From: a virus
Direction: 5' to 3' (one strand)
IMG/VR virus record: IMGVR_UViG_3300025892_000051
Location: 1 to 37,896 of that record
Length of the DNA stretch: 37,896 bases
A model generated the notes under the pieces. The model did not search any database. It had not been told where the DNA came from and worked only from the letters and a program-made list of their open reading frames with translations. Made by a program: the position numbers and the translations under genes. Shown here in pieces: positions 1 through 19,129 of the stretch (its first letter is position 1; each line of letters begins with the position of its first letter).

Positions 1-283
1 TTCCTTGTAAACCAGTGATACCTTGAATACCTTGTGTTCCTGTACCTTCAATACCTTGTAAACCTTGAGTTCCTTGTAAACCAGTGATACCTTGAACACC
101 CTGTGTACCAGACCCACTTATACCTTGTAAACCTTGAGTTCCTTGTAAACCAGTGATACCTTGAATACCTTGTGCACCAGACCCTTCTATACCTTGAATA
201 CCCTGTGTACCTTGAGTTCCTTGTAAACCAGTAATACCTTGAGCACCGGTTATACCTTGAGCGCCTTGAATACCTTGAGCTCC
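1..283 (-). repeat. Collagen-like Gly-X-Y repeat (first fibre)
   Basis: The encoded residues from 236 onward are Gly-X-Y triplets, mostly GIQ, GIT, GLQ and GTQ, in a unit of about 23 residues broken by GSG or GTG. Positions 1-100 match 3503-3602 in the other fibre gene at 97 of 100 bases by eye. Confidence 0.9.
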
Positions 284-988
284 GCCACCACCACCAGTTG
301 TACCAATATATCTCCAGCCTCTAATATAAAAATCTGTACCATCAGGGTATGTAGCATTACCTCCAGTACTACCAACAGCATTAATTAAATCATTAGATAC
401 TAATAATAATCCTTGATCATAATTAAATACCCAACCGGCAACATTACCGGGAGTACCTTCGGAAATTGATTTATCAACCTTTACCGCCGATGCTGTAGTA
501 GGATCACCACTCCATAGCTCAATTTCATATTTATCATTTTTTGCACCGCTTGGGGTTGGTATACTTGCTGGACCAATCCACATATCTTTTCTACCAGATG
601 ATGGTGTATTATATGTATTTAATGCATAATAAGTATTAGGGTTAGAACCTACTACCAAAGTCATTCTCGTGGCATTTCTATTTGCTATAGGCGAGTCATT
701 TGGTGAAAAGCCAGTACTAGTACCCCATTCATTTCCTACATAACCATCAAGAGGGTTACCAGGGTTAGTTAATATTAATAAAGATCCAGCTTGACCTTGA
801 TCTGATGTAGACGGTTGATTAGCAAGTATTACATTCCAATCAGTTTGGTCAATAAGCCGACCGGTTTTAACCGTAGGTGTATTTTCCAAATTGGATTGAT
901 ACCAGTAAAAATTTGTATCTGCATCGATAACATTACCAGCCTGTACTTTAAATACTAATTTTCTTACGTCTTGATTGCTAAATCCCAT
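1..988 (-). CDS. Collagen-like tail fibre protein, C-terminus cut by window edge
   Basis: The reading frame opens with ATG at 988 and stays open to the window edge, giving 329 codons and no stop. The first ~235 residues form a domain shared with the neighbouring 1249-aa fibre: both begin with a GFS segment, then KVQAG.VIDA, and later share VFNYDQGLL and RYIGT.GGGGG. Collagen-like Gly-X-Gln/Thr triplets start at about residue 236 and run to the edge. The shared N-terminal domain probably attaches the fibre to the virion, while the missing C-terminus would carry receptor binding. This is inferred from usual fibre architecture, not seen. A 68-aa gene separates the two paralogues. The repeat DNA is almost identical to that of the other fibre, so recombination between them is possible. 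Confidence 0.85.
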
Positions 989-1000
989 TGGATGCTTTTT

Positions 1001-1207
1001 TTATTTTTCCGTTTTGATTACTATCAAATCATCTGCCTCTTCCATATTGGAATCATACTCTAAATATTGTGCTACTAAATGTGATAAATCTCTTTTACTA
1101 ATTTTAAACACCTCTACTTTATCTTCGGATGTTTGTATAGACAAGTTACATACTTGAGAGTCTTTATTTATCTTTAATACTAATTTATGTTCAAATTTAC
1201 TTTTCAT
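1001..1207 (-). CDS. Small hypothetical protein between two fibre genes
   Basis: A 68-aa reading frame starting at ATG 1207 and ending 12 bases before the truncated fibre gene. The product is charged and soluble, with no membrane segment or recognisable motif; it alternates basic and acidic residues and ends in a DDLIVIKTEK-like strand. The octamer AATAAATA lies 12 bases upstream of the start and overlaps the stop of the 1249-aa fibre. Its place between two paralogous fibres suggests a fibre-related job such as a chaperone or small accessory subunit, but nothing in the sequence shows this. The overlapping plus-strand frame at 975-1157 looks like a shadow. Confidence 0.65.
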   Translation of the reverse strand: MKSKFEHKLVLKINKDSQVCNLSIQTSEDKVEVFKISKRDLSHLVAQYLEYDSNMEEADDLIVIKTEK

Positions 1208-1219
1208 CGGTTATTGTAT

Positions 1220-1227
1220 TATTTATT
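1220..1227 (-). promoter_or_regulatory. AATAAATA octamer before the 68-aa gene
   Basis: One base from the T4 late octamer, 12 bases before the ATG and touching the upstream stop codon. Late promoter or A-rich translation leader. Confidence 0.3.
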
Positions 1228-4200
1228 TAAGATACAAATATGTATTGTATCTGATCAAGTTTTATTGTACGGTCTATTAATTGTATTTCTACATAAAATC
1301 CACCAACAGCAACATTAGAAGAATTACCGAAGGTAAACTTACCAGTGTTACCGGAAGATGTTGATTTCATCATTCTTGTTTGAATAGTATCCAAACCTGT
1401 ATATGCTATAGGTATAGTACCAGGTGGTATCCAACCGCCTGCGCTCCACGCACCACTAAGATAACCTCCATGTAATGCTAGAGCATATTGACCATTGTTC
1501 GTTGGGTATGCAGTACCTGGTGCACCATCCTGGTATGTTGGTAAAAATGTATAATTACTACCCGTATTTGGATCTGGTCCTAATGCCGGATTAGTATTAG
1601 ATCCTACAGGAAATACATAAATTTTCATTTCATTATTTATTAATGCATCTGTAAAGTTTGCACTTACACCGGAATCTCCGCTAAATACTAAATCAAAATC
1701 TACACAACTAGTTCCAAATAGTCTGTGAAATATTGGAGTATTACCCATTGTATTATAATTAGGATTACCTGAAGGTTCATAATTACTTAAGTCACTGGAT
1801 ATAATAGTAGCAGGTTGTGCAGAATTACCAAGGTCAGCATAAAAATCAGATGCAGCAATACCCTGACCTCCAACATAACATAAATTCTCTACTGTTGAAG
1901 CAGATCTAGAATTTGGTGGCTGTGCAGGATCTAATAATGATAATCCACTATTCCAACCTGAATATGTAGTACCGGTAGAATCTCTAAATAGTCTTTGATT
2001 TTCGCCATTAAAATATTCAAATGTATTTGTAGAAGTTTGAGAGTTTACGTCAATTAAAAGTTTTCTATCACCAGATGTAGAAGGCCCTACATTTCCAGAC
2101 CATGGGTCATTAACTCTAACATCAGCTTCACCACCAATAGATCTAAATCTATAAGATGAGTTAGCAATAGTAAATGAATTAGTATTACTAAGATAGTCTA
2201 TATCAGTACCATCCCAATCATTATCAAGACCAACATTAGTAGTTAAGTTACCGTTTATTGTATTATATGAAGTATCTGATAAGTTTAATGTAGATGCTGA
2301 CCAATCATATAATCTTAATAAAATATTATTTGCATTTATGCTATTTCCATTTAATAAGTTAATACCATCTACACCTACTTGTATATTTGTACCATTTGTA
2401 TAATAAGTTATACCACTTATGTTTTTGGTAGATGCTGATGTTACTACTGGATTATTTACAGTAGTTCCTGATAAGTTAGGTGTATTTGGGTTACCATCAG
2501 CAAACACCGTATAACTAAATGAAGCTGGTAAATCTGGGGAAGGTGGATCTACTGCCACACCACTAGTATCAGCTGTCATATCAAGTTGTACTGTAAACTT
2601 ACCACCATCCCTAGGTTGTGTAGCATTATTAAATATACCTGCAGCGGCTCCTGGTGCTACATTAGTTGCACCCATTATTGTTTCAACTTTTATACTTGCT
2701 TCATATACATCTTGTGGATTATAAGGGTTAATGATAGTATTATAATCTGCTATTGTAATAACAATATCACCACTCGTACTTACAAAAGTACCATTACCTG
2801 TAATATTAGTTATTGTATGTGAATCCATAACTGTTGTTCCATCACCGTCAAATACTTGTACAACGATCTCACTATCACCGTTTCCAGCAATTCCACCAAA
2901 ACCTCTTACTTTAATTGGTGCTGCCGTGTTACCAGTTCCAAATAATATAGCTTCATCGGTTGATTGGCGATATACACTTCTTAATGTATTGCTATTAGAC
3001 CAACCTCCATCCGCAAAATTACCACCATCTCTCACGCCAGCAAATGGTTGATTAGGTATTGCTATCCTTTCACTTTGCGGATTATTATCTTCAGCAACCG
3101 TTGCACTCACGGCTCCAGTTGCTACATTTCTATTAAAATAATTAGGATATACTGGAGGAGGTGGAGCAGGGAAGAACACATTTACTTGTGTATTGTCATT
3201 AAAATCTTCTATTGCAAATACTGTTCCATTATCATCACCATCAACAAAATTAAATTTTGAATATGTGCCTGATAAAAAAGTAGGAGAACTTCCATCGTCT
3301 ACAGAGTTTGCTACTGTGATAGCAGAACCAGATCCACTTATACCTTGAACACCCTGTAAACCAGTAATACCTTGAACACCTTGTGTCCCAGAGCCAGTAA
3401 TACCTTGAATACCTTGAATACCTTGAATACTTGCTCCTTGTAACCCTGTTGCACCTTGAATACCTTGCGTTCCTATACCTTCAATACCCTGTAAACCTTG
3501 GGTTCCTTGTAAACCAGTGATACCTTGAATACCTTGAGTTCCTGTACCTTCAATACCTTGTAAACCTTGCGTTCCTTGTAAACCAGTGATACCTTGAATA
3601 CCTTGAGTTCCTGTACCTTCAATACCTTGTAAACCTTGGGTTCCTTGTAAACCCGTGATACCTTGAATACCTTGAGTTCCTGAACCAGTTATACCTTGTG
3701 TACCTTGAGTTCCTTGTAAACCAGTTATACCCTGAATACCTTGAGTTCCTGAACCAGTTATACCTTGCGTACCTTGAGTTCCTTGTAAACCAGTTATACC
3801 TTGAATACCTTGTGTACCTGAACCAGTGATACCTTGTAAACCTTGAGTTCCTTGTAAACCAGTAATACCTTGAATACCTTGAGTTCCTGAACCAGTGATA
3901 CCTTGTAAACCTTGAGTTCCTTGAATACCTTGTAAACCAGTAATACCTTGAATACCTTGAGTTCCTGAACCAGTGATACCTTGTAAACCTTGAGTTCCTT
4001 GTAAACCAGTAATACCTTGAATACCTTGAGTTCCTGAACCAGTGATACCTTGTGTACCTTGAGTTCCTTGTAAACCAGTGATACCTTGAATACCTTGGGC
4101 TCCACCGCCTTGTAATCCTTGTGTTCCTTGTATTCCTTGTATACCAGCACCAGTGATACCTTGAATACCTTGAGTACCCTGTGTTCCTTGTGGGCCACTA

Positions 4201-4976
4201 CCAGAGGTAATAGCTACTTCAATGTTTTCATTACCTGTACCTGATCCTATAACACTTACACCAGTTCCTGTAAAATCTATCTTTTTAACATCGGTAGTTA
4301 CTGATACGCCTTCATCTTCTATTTCTATTGCAGAACCACCACCACCGCCAGATGTACCGATATATCTAAAACCTGTTATATAAAAATCAAAACCTCCTGG
4401 GAATAGGAATGAATATGCTGGGTTGCTAATTAATGTCTGTAAATAATCAGATATAAAAAGTAACCCTTGATCATAATTAAATACCCACCCTACATATTCA
4501 GGCTGAGAGCCTTGTCCTAGTGTTGGAAATACTTGTGCAAAAGGGCCTGGCCCTGCAGGATTACCACTCCATAATGTAATCTGATATCCGCCTGAAGGTT
4601 CTCCTGATGCCTGTGGTCTAGATGCAGGTAAAATCCAATCTCTCCTAAAACCGGAGGTAGGATCATTATAAGTATTATAAGCAACAAATGTAGAATTATT
4701 TAAATTATATACTTGTGTTAATCTTATTGCATTACTTGCACTACTATCATCTTGAATAATAGTTGGATTTGCTATTGCCGCGTTTTGTGCGTCAGCTACT
4801 GAAGAGGCAGAAGGAATAGATTGATATTGTGATAATATTCTCTCGGGTGCCTTAACATTAGGCTCGAATGCTAAAGTTGATTCATACCATCGTTTACCTG
4901 CGGATGCGTCAATGACACCACCTGCCTGTACTTTAAAGGTTAGCTTATTAACTTCATTTATAGAAAATCCTGCCAT
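1227..4976 (-). CDS. Large collagen-like tail fibre (1249 aa)
   Basis: A three-part fibre. Residues 1 to ~215 are the N-terminal domain shared with the truncated fibre next door ([30 protein letters not shown]). Residues ~216-260 are a short beta segment with an IEDEGVSV...IDFTGTGVSV pattern common in phage fibres. Residues 261-548 are collagen-like triplets with about ten near-identical 23-residue units. Residues ~550-1249 are a beta-rich Gly/Asn/Ser/Thr domain paralogous to most of the 756-aa protein upstream; matching blocks include the pairs YADLGNS / YADDGNS, HRLF, DLVFSGD / ELTFSGD, and MKIYVFPVG / MLIYVRPLG. It probably forms a long trimeric host-recognition fibre. The triplets contain almost no proline; Gln, Thr, Ile and Leu dominate. 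The function is inferred from architecture. Confidence 0.88.
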   Translation of the reverse strand: MAGFSINEVNKLTFKVQAGGVIDASAGKRWYESTLAFEPNVKAPERILSQYQSIPSASSVADAQNAAIANPTIIQDDSSASNAIRLTQVYNLNNSTFVAYNTYNDPTSGFRRDWILPASRPQASGEPSGGYQITLWSGNPAGPGPFAQVFPTLGQGSQPEYVGWVFNYDQGLLFISDYLQTLISNPAYSFLFPGGFDFYITGFRYIGTSGGGGGSAIEIEDEGVSVTTDVKKIDFTGTGVSVIGSGTGNENIEVAITSGSGPQGTQGTQGIQGITGAGIQGIQGTQGLQGGGAQGIQGITGLQGTQGTQGITGSGTQGIQGITGLQGTQGLQGITGSGTQGIQGITGLQGIQGTQGLQGITGSGTQGIQGITGLQGTQGLQGITGSGTQGIQGITGLQGTQGTQGITGSGTQGIQGITGLQGTQGTQGITGSGTQGIQGITGLQGTQGLQGIEGTGTQGIQGITGLQGTQGLQGIEGTGTQGIQGITGLQGTQGLQGIEGIGTQGIQGATGLQGASIQGIQGIQGITGSGTQGVQGITGLQGVQGISGSGSAITVANSVDDGSSPTFLSGTYSKFNFVDGDDNGTVFAIEDFNDNTQVNVFFPAPPPPVYPNYFNRNVATGAVSATVAEDNNPQSERIAIPNQPFAGVRDGGNFADGGWSNSNTLRSVYRQSTDEAILFGTGNTAAPIKVRGFGGIAGNGDSEIVVQVFDGDGTTVMDSHTITNITGNGTFVSTSGDIVITIADYNTIINPYNPQDVYEASIKVETIMGATNVAPGAAAGIFNNATQPRDGGKFTVQLDMTADTSGVAVDPPSPDLPASFSYTVFADGNPNTPNLSGTTVNNPVVTSASTKNISGITYYTNGTNIQVGVDGINLLNGNSINANNILLRLYDWSASTLNLSDTSYNTINGNLTTNVGLDNDWDGTDIDYLSNTNSFTIANSSYRFRSIGGEADVRVNDPWSGNVGPSTSGDRKLLIDVNSQTSTNTFEYFNGENQRLFRDSTGTTYSGWNSGLSLLDPAQPPNSRSASTVENLCYVGGQGIAASDFYADLGNSAQPATIISSDLSNYEPSGNPNYNTMGNTPIFHRLFGTSCVDFDLVFSGDSGVSANFTDALINNEMKIYVFPVGSNTNPALGPDPNTGSNYTFLPTYQDGAPGTAYPTNNGQYALALHGGYLSGAWSAGGWIPPGTIPIAYTGLDTIQTRMMKSTSSGNTGKFTFGNSSNVAVGGFYVEIQLIDRTIKLDQIQYIFVS
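3333..4196 (-). repeat. Collagen-like 23-residue tandem repeats
   Basis: Encodes residues 261-548 of the 1249-aa fibre. The commonest unit is seven Gly-X-Y triplets ([21 protein letters not shown]) followed by a two-residue break (GS, GT or GI), 69 bases per unit. One unit has an extra triplet, and the last units are degenerate. Units vary mainly at LQG/TQG and GIT/GIE. The strong repetition also opens a false frame at 3794-4198. Confidence 0.92.
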
Positions 4977-4994
4977 TTGATTAGTTTCTTTTTA

Positions 4995-5002
4995 TATTTA
5001 TT
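4995..5002 (-). promoter_or_regulatory. AATAAATA octamer before the 1249-aa fibre
   Basis: One mismatch to TATAAATA, 18 bases before the ATG, a spacing compatible with a T4-type late promoter. Confidence 0.35.
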
Positions 5003-5014
5003 CAATATTATATT

Positions 5015-7285
5015 TTACACAGATCCACCGGACTCAAAAGTAGGTGATCCTGAACTAAATATTATTTTTGCGGATATACCGCTTAGTTTAATTTCTTCAT
5101 CAATTAAATGGACCTCAGTATAAAAACCATCAATTGGTGACGGTATCGAACCAAAACTACAGTCTATGACATTTGGCGTTGGTGTTGCTATCGTTGTTCT
5201 TATTTGAGAGCTATATGTAGTAAAATCATCAACTGAAGCAGGTGGGTCTTGTGTAAGACCTACAAATATAGGACCATGAACAGAATATGGTATTGCATTA
5301 TATCCAATGTTACCACCACTACCAGAAGTACCTAACGGCCTAACATATATTAACATCTTATTACTGCTTAAGGCCGCGAGTGCATCAGCACTAGTCCCAA
5401 AATCTCCAGAAAAAGTTAATTCAAATGAACTAAATGGTCTATTAAGGTTAGATGCCGATACTTCGAATAATCTATGATAAGTTGGAGTAACTTGATATCC
5501 TACTCCACTGTAATCAGGATTAGGCCCACCAACATTAGGTGCAAACAAAGATAGGTCAGCTATTAATGTTCCAACCGCAGGTGAATTACCATCATCAGCA
5601 TAAAATTTATCTGGCCTAACTAAAGTACCTCCTACTACAGCAGACTGGCAAAATGGGCCAGTGGATATAGCTGATGTTGTTTGATTTGCTAAACCTGATG
5701 GTGTTAGTGTAGCGGATGAAACTATTGGTTGATAAGTACCTCCACTTCTTGTTAATCTTTCTGCTTCATCATCAAACCGTTCAGTTAATTTATCACTTGT
5801 TGTACTGTAGGTATCTATTAGAATTGCTGATGTGTTAGAATTTACAAAGCCTGAATCTGACCAAGGATCATATGCCTTTGATTTTATAATAGCATCAGAA
5901 TTTCTAAACCTCCAATTAGTAGCAGTAATATCCCACTCGTCATAATCAATACTTATTCCACTTACATTATAATCATTAGACCAACCTGATAAATTAAACC
6001 CACTAGGCCAAGTGGCAGAATTCCATGCAGGTTCTTGTACAGGGCTTAAGCCATAATCGGAACCTTCTACTAATAAATTATAATTAGACGCACCACCTTG
6101 CCCTTGTGTATTACTATTAAGTTTATCAATCGCGTTAACATTTATAACAAACCGAGAATTAAGATCATAATATTGTACACCGCTTAAGTATTTAGTAATT
6201 ACAGACGGTGCATTAGGGGATGGGTTAATTACAACGTTACCATTAATTTCTGGTGTAGATGGATAAGAACCATCATTATTAGCATCCCAGAAAATATCAG
6301 GTTGATTATAAACATATTGAGCACCACTATCAGTAGTTGAATCAGTTGTCATAGTGCACTTAACATGAAATCTTCCACCGCTTCTTCCGGCTAATGTAAA
6401 GATATCTCCAATGTTTACTGTAATTTGAACATCTGCCTTTTTTCTATTAGCGTCATTTTGAAAATTAGTTATGCCAACACTTATTCTATTTCCAGGTGAA
6501 TTATATGATCCTGCTGCAAATATAACACCTGTTGTAAAATCCTCCAATTCATAAACACCATCGGCATCATACACAATAACATTAAATGTAGCATTTCCAG
6601 TAGCATCATTACTAAACCCTGTCACCTGGCCACCCGTAGTAAATGTAATTGGTGCGGAAGTTGATGGATCAATACTATTAAAAGCAGGGTGATTAGATCC
6701 TGCCCAACCACCTGTACTAAAAGGAACGCCTTCAGATTGTGGATCGCTTATTCTTATCGATGCACTTCTTGTAAAACCGCCTTCTGAAACTATACCGTTC
6801 GTACTACCATCGGTAGTGTTAAAATGAGAAGCAAATGTTGGTACTGGTATAAAGACATTTACAGTACCTGGTGTTCCACTATCTTGTGCTAATACATCAG
6901 CACCAATAAAATTAATAGTTTTATATGTACCTATGTCAATACCCTCATCTTTAATATGTAAACCTGCAAATGTTAATTTATTATTTCCATCTACAATAAG
7001 GTTTGTTTGTGAAGTATCTAAATTAATTGATATTTCTTCATCAGATCCAATTGGCGTTAATTTAATACCTGAACCTGCAGTAACAGTATCACCACCACCG
7101 CCACCTAAGCTATTTATAGTTATAGTATCACCAGCAGCAGTACTAACTTTAACTAATTGTATATCAGTTCCACCTACTAATATAGGATTATATGATGCAT
7201 CAATAAAATCATATAGTGTAGTCTGAGTGATTAAATCACCTGCTTCAAATAATAGTTTTAATTGATCTTTTGCTAGTACTGGCAT
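5015..7285 (-). CDS. Tail fibre/receptor-binding-like protein without collagen (756 aa)
   Basis: The N terminus (MPVLAKDQLKLLFEAGD, then L-DFIDASYNP) differs from the other two fibres and may be an attachment domain of another type. Residues ~100-145 carry the IKDEGIDIG...INFIGADV segment that the 1249-aa fibre also has before its collagen. Residues ~150-756 are paralogous to the C-terminal 700 residues of that fibre, including SGVQYYD against SGITYYT, and YADDGNS, YHRLF and FELTFSGDFG. It therefore looks like the same distal module on a different base, without the collagen spacer. AATAAATA lies seven bases before the ATG. Role as a fibre or fibre tip is inferred. Confidence 0.82.
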   Translation of the reverse strand: MPVLAKDQLKLLFEAGDLITQTTLYDFIDASYNPILVGGTDIQLVKVSTAAGDTITINSLGGGGGDTVTAGSGIKLTPIGSDEEISINLDTSQTNLIVDGNNKLTFAGLHIKDEGIDIGTYKTINFIGADVLAQDSGTPGTVNVFIPVPTFASHFNTTDGSTNGIVSEGGFTRSASIRISDPQSEGVPFSTGGWAGSNHPAFNSIDPSTSAPITFTTGGQVTGFSNDATGNATFNVIVYDADGVYELEDFTTGVIFAAGSYNSPGNRISVGITNFQNDANRKKADVQITVNIGDIFTLAGRSGGRFHVKCTMTTDSTTDSGAQYVYNQPDIFWDANNDGSYPSTPEINGNVVINPSPNAPSVITKYLSGVQYYDLNSRFVINVNAIDKLNSNTQGQGGASNYNLLVEGSDYGLSPVQEPAWNSATWPSGFNLSGWSNDYNVSGISIDYDEWDITATNWRFRNSDAIIKSKAYDPWSDSGFVNSNTSAILIDTYSTTSDKLTERFDDEAERLTRSGGTYQPIVSSATLTPSGLANQTTSAISTGPFCQSAVVGGTLVRPDKFYADDGNSPAVGTLIADLSLFAPNVGGPNPDYSGVGYQVTPTYHRLFEVSASNLNRPFSSFELTFSGDFGTSADALAALSSNKMLIYVRPLGTSGSGGNIGYNAIPYSVHGPIFVGLTQDPPASVDDFTTYSSQIRTTIATPTPNVIDCSFGSIPSPIDGFYTEVHLIDEEIKLSGISAKIIFSSGSPTFESGGSV

Positions 7286-8657: not shown

Positions 8658-8665
8658 TATTTATT
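8658..8665 (-). promoter_or_regulatory. AATAAATA octamer before the NMNAT-like gene
   Basis: One mismatch to TATAAATA, 13 bases before the ATG, followed by a TATATAG stretch. Confidence 0.3.
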
Positions 8666-11447
8666 TCTCAATTTTAATACCCATGTTAGCATTAAAAGGG
8701 TTGCTCATTGAGCCTTTCTGTTCAAATGCAAACTTTGCAGATGAAAATGGAACAGTTTTAAATTGGAATAAACCTTTTTTAACTAATACATCTAAATACA
8801 GCTGCTTAACATCGGTTACTATTTGTGAGTACTGTGTTAATTGTGAAGTATATTTTTTATTAAGTATTTTTGTAGCCTCAACCATTAATGGATAAAATAC
8901 TATCCCAACTCTATTTTTACCTAGTGCTGTATATCCATCGTAAGCGGCGTTTAATTTTTTGTCATTCCAAGCCATTCCTGCTTTTGTCCATAAATTATTT
9001 AAAAACTCTTTAAATTTATTTTCGTCTAAATGTAATTCATCTAAAAAAGATACTACCGAGTCTTGTGTTAATAAATCAGGTTGAAGATTAGATTGTTTTG
9101 TTAAATACCAATAACCTGAGTTATTATCATCAGGAATGTTTACATTACATAAATTCATAACAGTATTGTAAATACTACTTCTTGCTAATTTACGAGGATT
9201 TGTCCATACCTTTATTACATTGTTATAAAAATCTTTTTCTTGTATAGTGTCAAAATCTAACTTATCATCTAAATACATTGATGATATTCTTTGAATAATA
9301 GTATCACCACTAGGAGTACCGCCTTTGCCTGCCTTTGATGATATACTATAATTATCAAAGTAAAAATCAACTAACTTTTCATTAGAATTTTTTGGATATC
9401 TTATACCTGCACCAGAATCTTTTAATAAATTAAATAACATAAACCCACCTAACACTTCACCATAATCATTTTGAAAGTTTTTAATTGAGATTGCATCTAT
9501 CCCTTCAAATAAAGATTCAGTAATTAAATAGCTTAAACTTTGAGTAGGTGCGTTTGCATATTTTTTAAAATCGGTAAATTTATCAAGGTTACTTCCGTTT
9601 TCTATAACCTCACGAGTAGATGCCAAGATAAAGTTTTTATAATTATCTGGTAATTTACTAGAGTTTATGTATCGTTCTACTTTTGAATATAATGCAGTAC
9701 TATTCTGGTATTCATGTTTAGGTAAACCCATCCTATCTGGTGTTAAATCTTTTTTACCTATAATAGCGGCTTCTCCTGTTTTCTTAGAAATTTTATATCT
9801 ATTAGTTATTATAAAAAACTCGCTAGGGGAATATTCTTGCCCTAATTTATTAGATGTAGGTTTTTTAATGTTAATTTTATATGCATTGTAATCAGAAGAT
9901 ATTACACCAATAGGTAACATTTCTATTTCATACGTACCTTTCTTTAGTCCTGATTTTAATAAAAATTTGTCTATACTTAATTCTGCTGCCCCGTCATTAG
10001 CACCAAAGTTTGCACGAAGAACTTCTCCAGTATCACCCTTTCTACTTGACACACCTGCAGTATCAGTAGACTTCATAATAGATTTAAATTGCTTTTTCCA
10101 AAATTCCTCTACTGATTTTTTTGTAATCTTTCTTGCTTCTATTATTACATCAACCTTTCCTATATTAATAAAATTGTTATAGTCTAATACTTTATCTTCA
10201 ATTAATAATTCTTCAGCATTAGGTAAAAGAGATTCATTGGTAGATTTAATTTTTAAGTAATCATCAAAAGTTTTAAACTTGCTATCTTCTTTTGCTTGGA
10301 TTACATTATTTACTTTATCTACCATTTTATTAAAATCTTCAATAACCGATGGTGTCATGATATTACCGGTGTTCTTTCTTTTCTTTTTTAAAGAGCCTAG
10401 CATTATTTTAAAAAGATCTTTTAATTTAGGGTTGCTATTTAATATATCCTTGGTTCTTTGGCTTGGTATTAATTCTGTATTTAAACTAAACTCTTCTCCC
10501 TTTGCAAAATCTGCCTTTTCAATATCAACTTTTGTAATATCCTTTCCTCTTTTGGTTACATAGTCATTGAATATATTTGAGACTAATTCAATATATCTGT
10601 TATCCTCAGTGTCACCTAATATTTCATGCTTCTTAATACCTCTTTCTTCTATAAATGCCAAAAGATCTAATAAAATTATTTCATTAATATCAGCAGGAGC
10701 CTTTCTCATGTCAATAGGTTCCTTTTCTTTCATTAAGTTAATCGTATAAGGATCTATTAATTTAGCAGCAATGACTTGCTTTGTGCCTGATTTGTAAAAT
10801 TTAAATATTATAGATTCAATAGGTTTTTTAAGATCATTTTGTAGTGTTGTGGATTGAATACTAGGGTTTAATATTCTAAGTAAATATTCAGCAAACGAAT
10901 TGGTACTAAAAATTTCAGACTGATCTTCTTTTGGTGTTTCTAAAAACTCCTTAATCTTTTTCTTTTGGTCTTCTGTTAAATAACCTTTAAATAATGGAAG
11001 TAGTGGAGTAACACCTAAAGCGTTTGCCCAATCCTTAATTACTCTAGGATCTTCTATAACCTTTGTAACTTTACCTGCCGATGACATAACCTTAATGTGA
11101 GTGAGTACTAAATTATTTTTAGGTAGCCTATCATAAGTAATAATACCAGGATTAGTATTTACAAAATATTGAAAACAGAACTTCCAATTCTCAGGAATAG
11201 AAGAAAGATTTTTATTAGCTATTGATTTTATATAACTAATAGGCTTCTCATAGTAAACCATTATGGTTCTATCAATTAGATTAATAGGTCTTTGATTTCC
11301 GCCTTTATAAAAGGTAATTCCTTCACCGTCTTTTTTAAATGAAAACGAAGAACCTGATAGTTTTTCTGAAACTACAAGATAATCCTTAAAAAGATCTTCT
11401 ATTAATTGTTGCCCTGCATCTTTATAAATCTGAGTTAACTCTTTCAT
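8661..11447 (-). CDS. Large protein with Rnl2-like ligase N-terminus and possible nuclease C-terminus (928 aa)
   Basis: Residues ~20-235 show the order of covalent nucleotidyltransferase motifs: motif I EKLSGSSFSF (Lys29), a motif III candidate around FCFQYF (90-95), YDRLP then LVLTHIKV (motif IIIa, 113-120), motif IV IESIIFKF (210-217) and motif V AAKL (227-230). The KxxG form of motif I resembles T4 RNA ligase 2 (EKIHG), but the motif III Glu appears to be Gln. The remaining ~690 residues match no family I can name. Within them Glu664, Asp694 and Ser703-x-Lys705 (ISSKAGKGG) fit a divergent PD-(D/E)xK nuclease core, a tentative reading. An RNA or DNA repair/processing role is inferred. The neighbours are two more nucleotidyltransferase-like genes. 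A TATAAATT octamer lies 19 bases before the start. Confidence 0.7.
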   Translation of the reverse strand: MKELTQIYKDAGQQLIEDLFKDYLVVSEKLSGSSFSFKKDGEGITFYKGGNQRPINLIDRTIMVYYEKPISYIKSIANKNLSSIPENWKFCFQYFVNTNPGIITYDRLPKNNLVLTHIKVMSSAGKVTKVIEDPRVIKDWANALGVTPLLPLFKGYLTEDQKKKIKEFLETPKEDQSEIFSTNSFAEYLLRILNPSIQSTTLQNDLKKPIESIIFKFYKSGTKQVIAAKLIDPYTINLMKEKEPIDMRKAPADINEIILLDLLAFIEERGIKKHEILGDTEDNRYIELVSNIFNDYVTKRGKDITKVDIEKADFAKGEEFSLNTELIPSQRTKDILNSNPKLKDLFKIMLGSLKKKRKNTGNIMTPSVIEDFNKMVDKVNNVIQAKEDSKFKTFDDYLKIKSTNESLLPNAEELLIEDKVLDYNNFINIGKVDVIIEARKITKKSVEEFWKKQFKSIMKSTDTAGVSSRKGDTGEVLRANFGANDGAAELSIDKFLLKSGLKKGTYEIEMLPIGVISSDYNAYKINIKKPTSNKLGQEYSPSEFFIITNRYKISKKTGEAAIIGKKDLTPDRMGLPKHEYQNSTALYSKVERYINSSKLPDNYKNFILASTREVIENGSNLDKFTDFKKYANAPTQSLSYLITESLFEGIDAISIKNFQNDYGEVLGGFMLFNLLKDSGAGIRYPKNSNEKLVDFYFDNYSISSKAGKGGTPSGDTIIQRISSMYLDDKLDFDTIQEKDFYNNVIKVWTNPRKLARSSIYNTVMNLCNVNIPDDNNSGYWYLTKQSNLQPDLLTQDSVVSFLDELHLDENKFKEFLNNLWTKAGMAWNDKKLNAAYDGYTALGKNRVGIVFYPLMVEATKILNKKYTSQLTQYSQIVTDVKQLYLDVLVKKGLFQFKTVPFSSAKFAFEQKGSMSNPFNANMGIKIEK

Positions 11448-18862: not shown

Positions 18863-19129
18863 TTATTCTATAATAGCTGTTACATCAGAATCTCTAATAC
18901 TGAATATCTTTTCACCGTTATAAGTAAATTCAGTTCCTGCTAAGTCATGAAATAATACTGTCATTCCTACTTTATAGTCTGAATCTTCTATATCTTCACC
19001 AACAGATAATATAACACCTGAATATGGTGGCGCATATTGGCCTTCAGATTTCGGTACATAGATGCTCCCAATTTTTTCTGGTTGCTCATCTTTTTTAAGA
19101 AATATTCTATTTTTTATTGCCTTTATCAT
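18863..19129 (-). CDS. GroES-like co-chaperonin (T4 gp31-type)
   Basis: An 88-residue Cpn10 fold: it starts MIKAIKNRIFLKKDE, has a mobile loop at about residues 19-38 (GSIYVPKSEGQYAPPYSG), then GVILSVGE, KVGMTVLFHD and a final ISRD-like strand ending VTAIIE, all as in GroES. It caps the host GroEL ring; in T4, gp31 replaces GroES for folding the major capsid protein. It is closer in length to bacterial GroES (97) than to gp31 (111). No GroEL is encoded nearby, so it must use the host chaperonin. It has its own 113-base upstream gap. Confidence 0.93.
   Translation of the reverse strand: MIKAIKNRIFLKKDEQPEKIGSIYVPKSEGQYAPPYSGVILSVGEDIEDSDYKVGMTVLFHDLAGTEFTYNGEKIFSIRDSDVTAIIE

Follow-up and report, generated by a model that had tools for sequence, protein, structure and literature searches.

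How one phage comes to carry three fibre-type genes that share parts in a patchwork is the question raised by one end of a 37,896-bp stretch of DNA (the window), which constitutes an entire virus record (IMGVR_UViG_3300025892_000051). Four genes lie here on the minus strand, in the order C, B, S and A. Gene C (positions 5015-7285) encodes a stand-alone protein of 756 amino acids, the first 118 residues of which (6932-7285) form a head whose place is taken by other heads in relatives. Gene B (1227-4976) encodes a 1249-aa fusion, which is in frame throughout and consists of an N-domain (residues 1-214; 4335-4976), a linker that is present or absent among close relatives (residues 215-261; 4194-4334), a collagen shaft (residues 262-551; 3324-4193) and a C-terminal module, here called C' (residues 552-1249; 1227-3323). 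Gene S (1001-1207; 68 aa) resides between the C' module and gene A, a position that is conserved in relatives. Gene A (2-988; 329 aa) carries another N-domain (residues 1-236; 281-988) and only the start of a collagen-like shaft (2-280), within which it runs off the contig; it is cut off because the window is the whole virus record. We consider it likely that this region is a virion-fibre locus in which two C-S-N cassettes stand head-to-tail in tandem and have been fused through a collagen shaft.

The N-domains of A and B are 39% identical over 229 residues in BLASTP comparisons (E 3.6e-41, shuffle z 51), and the C-terminal part of B aligns with C at 30% identity over 717 residues (E 5e-40, shuffle z 47). 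Pairs for which no relationship had been claimed score at background, with z values of -0.1 for the A N-domain and C, 2.1 for the B N-domain and C, and -0.5 for the A N-domain and the C-terminal part of B. An earlier note on this DNA had located the three open reading frames as we find them, all on the minus strand. It proposed that the truncated fibre and the 1249-aa fibre share an N-terminal domain and collagen shaft, and that the 1249- and 756-aa proteins share a C-terminal domain but differ at their N termini. Background scores for the claimed pairs, which it had named in advance as telling against it, failed to materialise, and these proposals stand. Its description of a three-gene family built by module exchange holds in part: related loci bear out the exchange, but the domains fall into two families, N and C, that are unrelated to each other, and S is an additional small gene.

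Residues 255-657 of C match phrog_31482 (E 4e-22), and C aligns with its relatives over the full length. The N-domains match phrog_33494 at profile positions 1-230 (A, E 8e-26; B, E 2e-30), and PHROGs labels both families as being of unknown function. Both shafts match Pfam Collagen (A, 33.8 bits; B, 89 bits; cut-off 27.2), as the earlier note had anticipated, and are built on a repeat unit of 69 bp. They are 87% identical in amino acid sequence over 92 residues. The fraction of shared codons, 0.72, exceeds the codon-usage expectation of 0.63 only modestly, and similarity between low-complexity shafts is thus weak evidence when taken alone. Recent gene conversion between the A and B shafts was considered and set aside, since the codon excess is slight, and we do not claim that the two have exchanged sequence recently in this genome. 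For the N and C paralogues, codon sharing is at the codon-usage expectation (0.52 versus 0.49, and 0.55 versus 0.52), which points to an old divergence.

Profiles of N and C were used to find the cassette in isolates and contigs. Shewanella phages 1/4 and 1/40 and six Vibrio phages have a C gene (585-616 aa) followed closely by an N-domain gene (653-960 aa), mostly annotated as hypothetical or coiled-coil proteins. The two genes are thus unfused in all 8 isolates examined, and contigs of 250-271 kb have the same arrangement. Five contigs contain complete N genes, which encode 2514-3852 aa and include collagen-type stretches that reach about 3450 residues. Those of L070 (2447-12433), L071 and L068, at 3328-3852 aa, have collagen-type shafts that, at up to ~3450 residues, are to our knowledge among the longest in phages.

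The Vibrio isolates, the large contigs and L035/L036 have an ORF of about 48-75 aa, corresponding to S, between C and N. S follows C' and precedes the last N gene in the window, L007 and L025, and it also precedes an N gene in L140. It is missing between C and N in the Shewanella phages, and between C and B in the window and L022-L024. The S genes of the window and L025 are clearly similar at the DNA level (z 16), and the S of Vibrio phages, linked to that of the window by position and weak similarity, would be its counterpart. Possibly, S is an assembly factor. C-S-N in one unfused copy, as found in Vibrio and Shewanella phages and in ~250-270-kb contigs, looks like the ancestral cassette.

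This ancestral unit would comprise C (a beta-rich protein of ~600 aa), S (~50-75 aa) and N, in which an N-domain of ~205 aa is followed by a shaft or other distal part. To produce the arrangement in the window, the N gene of a first unit and the C gene of a second would have been fused through the collagen shaft of the former, yielding the N-shaft-C' architecture of B. The S gene of the first unit would have been lost, and the S and N genes of the second unit, the latter being gene A, would come next. The joints lie in repetitive or glycine-rich coding DNA (the shaft and a GGGGG linker), so that crossovers there could stay in frame while domains are swapped, added or dropped. A linker of ~45 aa comes and goes between the close relatives L022, L023 and L024.

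Related loci document several such arrangements. The N-shaft-C' architecture is also present in L005, L007, L022, L023 and L024, at different levels of divergence. L025 has the order C, N-C', N-shaft-C', S, N-shaft. L140, a 7.4-kb contig that was binned with a gammaproteobacterial metagenome-assembled genome (MAG), reads C-end, S, N-shaft-C, S, N-shaft-C; its two copies are 85% identical at the DNA level in the N part and 77% in the C part, have S in both gaps and differ in shaft length. In L140, S-[N-shaft-C] has been repeated in tandem, and comparatively recently. A fibre locus can grow in this way, by concatenation of the whole cassette and fusion of neighbouring genes through a repeat.

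Plain duplication and divergence within the phage lineage, in which C gave rise to C' and one N gene to both A and B with no exchange, is in our judgement improbable as an account of the locus. In the N tree, B-type domains adjoin the first N genes of L026-L034 (support 80/73), and A-type domains lie in a larger clade that also includes L035/L036/L044 and L050/L053 (96/90). A single clade of A and B N-domains is rejected both in the full set (p 3.6e-5) and in a reduced set (p 1.5e-6); judged by this tree, the two are not sister duplicates of this lineage. The C' modules cluster in a single clade, separate from every solo C gene. Grouping C' with the solo C genes of the same phages is rejected when all rows are used (p 0.0014) but not when long branches are removed (p 0.107), and the tree therefore does not fix the source of C'. 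The latter result favours duplication, as does the fact that recent tandem duplication does happen, in L140. The second N gene of L025, however, has an N-domain that is A-type by sequence (AU p 1e-98, likelihood gap of 110 units, the group having been named after the tree was seen) and, behind it, a linker, shaft and C' of B type, and this joining of an A-type N-domain to a B-type C module implies that modules really were exchanged.

Module exchange, at the level of sequence, is supported by the discordant N and C trees, by the L025 hybrid, by the at least five unrelated N-terminal heads carried by the C module across the set, and by the reiteration in L140. A tree of a 1297-aa protein places the window lineage together with L027 and L044, which have first N genes of different types; these two contigs are truncated, which makes loss and exchange inseparable for their N genes.

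The mosaic might also have been created by short-read assembly, if collagen repeats common to several genes led the assembler to wrong joins. Most contigs of the group do stop inside a shaft, and L004 appears chimeric, with a B shaft joined to the shaft of another gene, D, across an out-of-frame gap of 26 bases. Nevertheless, we find this explanation very hard to credit. B is in frame over its 1249 residues, and N-shaft-C' is repeated, with diverged sequence, in the five contigs that share this architecture. Also, in gene 2 of L025, N and C' are connected by a linker that is not repetitive; because this fusion involves no repetitive shaft, misassembly is not the general cause. The probable chimeric join in L004 (3129-6288) is an example of how collagen shafts can break and mis-join short-read phage assemblies, and serves as a warning.

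The rest of the truncated gene A, whose recovery the earlier note had called for, eluded us. Contigs were sought via the downstream genes, and ends of relatives were found, none of which matches or overlaps the shaft of the window; the tip of A can consequently only be surmised. Nor was the end seen in any relative of the same architecture, most contigs stopping in shafts. A 793-aa ORF in L004 was rejected as the end of gene A, as the same C-terminus belongs to the complete 1645-aa collagen gene D in L066/L067, and the L004 join was rejected as a true continuation because it is out of frame inside repeats. Gene D (L066, 7577-12514) is a fourth collagen fibre gene; it lies close to genes of baseplate type, and both its N-terminus and its C-terminal tip are its own.

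Relatives' contigs that start in a shaft run into conserved genes, which encode a 66-aa DUF6171-type protein, a 109-aa protein and others. The last N gene ends in a tip of 42-43 aa in L070 and L087, and in a tip of ~180 aa in L088, L089 and L091, the three that were tested, which are related at 20-27% identity; tips in L095, L096, L099, L105 and L106 look similar to these. An S74 chaperone domain is the probable end of the last N gene in L098 and L104. L026 and L106 are linked by 25-mers that they have in common, as are L033 and L089. Across L088-L106 the tips differ strongly, and the downstream genes are fixed. No relation of the last-gene tips to the tip of D or to the C module was detected.

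We infer that N is most likely the virion-attachment end, and the collagen repeats suggest that the shaft is most likely a trimeric triple-helical spacer. The C module and the tip of the last gene are most likely the distal parts, with a possible receptor-binding role. Host-range diversification by fibre modules, as the earlier note had suggested, is plausible, and the variable distal tips in relatives are compatible with it.

Structure models predict an all-beta fold for C (mean pLDDT 80) and are moderate for N (mean pLDDT 79). Sequence-profile searches of PDB with C and N returned nothing credible, N matching only antibody chains with E above 0.02. Foldseek/VIA comparisons of C with PDB gave only generic beta-sandwich matches within background, the best being a phi812 baseplate chain (Z 7.6, rmsd 3.3, 131 residues), and for N no informative match (Z under 5). 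Relatives of C among predicted viral structures include a 596-aa top match and proteins of CcrColossus, Atu_ph07 and Tenacibaculum PTm1 (E 5e-38 to 6e-13); they belong to other large phages, and no solved homologue of known function was found. A search of bacterial genomes for a clue to the host yielded just two MAG contigs, possibly mis-binned phage.

These proteins might instead be head fibres (of capsid or neck) or decoration proteins, in which case their diversity would not mainly reflect receptor choice. Because, in the Shewanella and Vibrio isolates, the gene for the major capsid protein is closely followed by the cassette, we keep this role in play, and the PHROGs labels for both families are compatible with it. 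However, the collagen shafts match PHROG tail-fibre families, and the probable end of one such gene bears an S74 chaperone domain, which is common in tail fibres and spikes. A head location strikes us as unlikely, if worth keeping in view.

The carrier of these fibre genes is a large marine phage. Upstream of the fibre genes are a cytidyltransferase-like gene, T4-type replication genes and genes for tail- or baseplate-type proteins. The nearest relative of the window helicase (57% identity) and of the 1297-aa protein (42%) is an uncultured 462-kb phage, LR756500. Its helicase, p423 and p928/cytidyltransferase genes are homologous to those of the window and collinear with them, the backbone order being kept up to the p928/cytidyltransferase fusion. 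No N or C homologue is present in the 28 kb after these backbone genes, nor was one detected anywhere in LR756500 by tblastn. Sharing of the backbone without N or C indicates that the window lineage is related to this megaphage, and that the fibre cassette occupies a slot the two do not share. Megaphages have been described from marine and freshwater sources (PMC9723777). Within the window, the 928-aa neighbour of the fibre genes (8661-11447, minus strand) has 67% identity to its L007 counterpart, compared with 84-98% for flanking genes, and thus appears to be a fast-evolving gene. A GroES-like co-chaperonin gene (18863-19129, minus strand) lies amid the replication genes.

More tentatively, C-S-N might be a self-contained cassette that passes from one large phage to another, unrelated one and increases in number through tandem in-frame fusions at collagen repeats; S would be a dedicated assembly factor of the N fibre. 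The phages concerned would be 130-150-kb vibriophages and shewanellaphages, ~250-270-kb phages and megaphage relatives. We regard this extension as possible though doubtful; if true, the cassette would be a general engine for adding fibres to the virion.

The collagen-like side tail fibres EPclA and EPclB of E. coli prophages have globular N- and C-terminal domains joined by a collagen triple helix, are trimeric by experiment, and have domains that are recombined in different combinations among prophages (PMC3368898). The window locus resembles them in having globular ends on a collagen shaft and recombined domains, here known from sequence, but no N or C domain family in common with EPclA/EPclB was found by sequence, and the window differs in concatenating an entire C-S-N unit and in having neighbouring genes fused. 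Host-recognition islands of pelagimyophages and cyanomyophages are hypervariable fibre regions, including collagen repeats, of marine T4-like phages (PMC7029224). The likeness to these islands lies in a variable fibre region with collagen repeats and not in a demonstrated common domain family, and unlike theirs, the backbone of the window is nearest to megaphage LR756500.

Homologous modules in the same gene order are provided by Shewanella phage 1/4, whose adjacent genes S14_122 and S14_123, annotated as hypothetical, correspond to phrog_31482 (C) and phrog_33494 (N). Unlike in the window, C and N of the Shewanella and Vibrio phages remain separate genes, and N is not collagenous. That phages vary their fibres by recombining modules is already known, and the window adds a clear new case of this rather than a system of a new kind. 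What is added is the C-S-N unit, the finding that several unrelated phage groups carry it, and the way in which it has been concatenated and its genes fused. Two widespread, unannotated virion-type families of large marine phages and their small companion gene are thereby given an order and evolutionary relations, and the model of locus growth is testable in culturable Shewanella and Vibrio phages.
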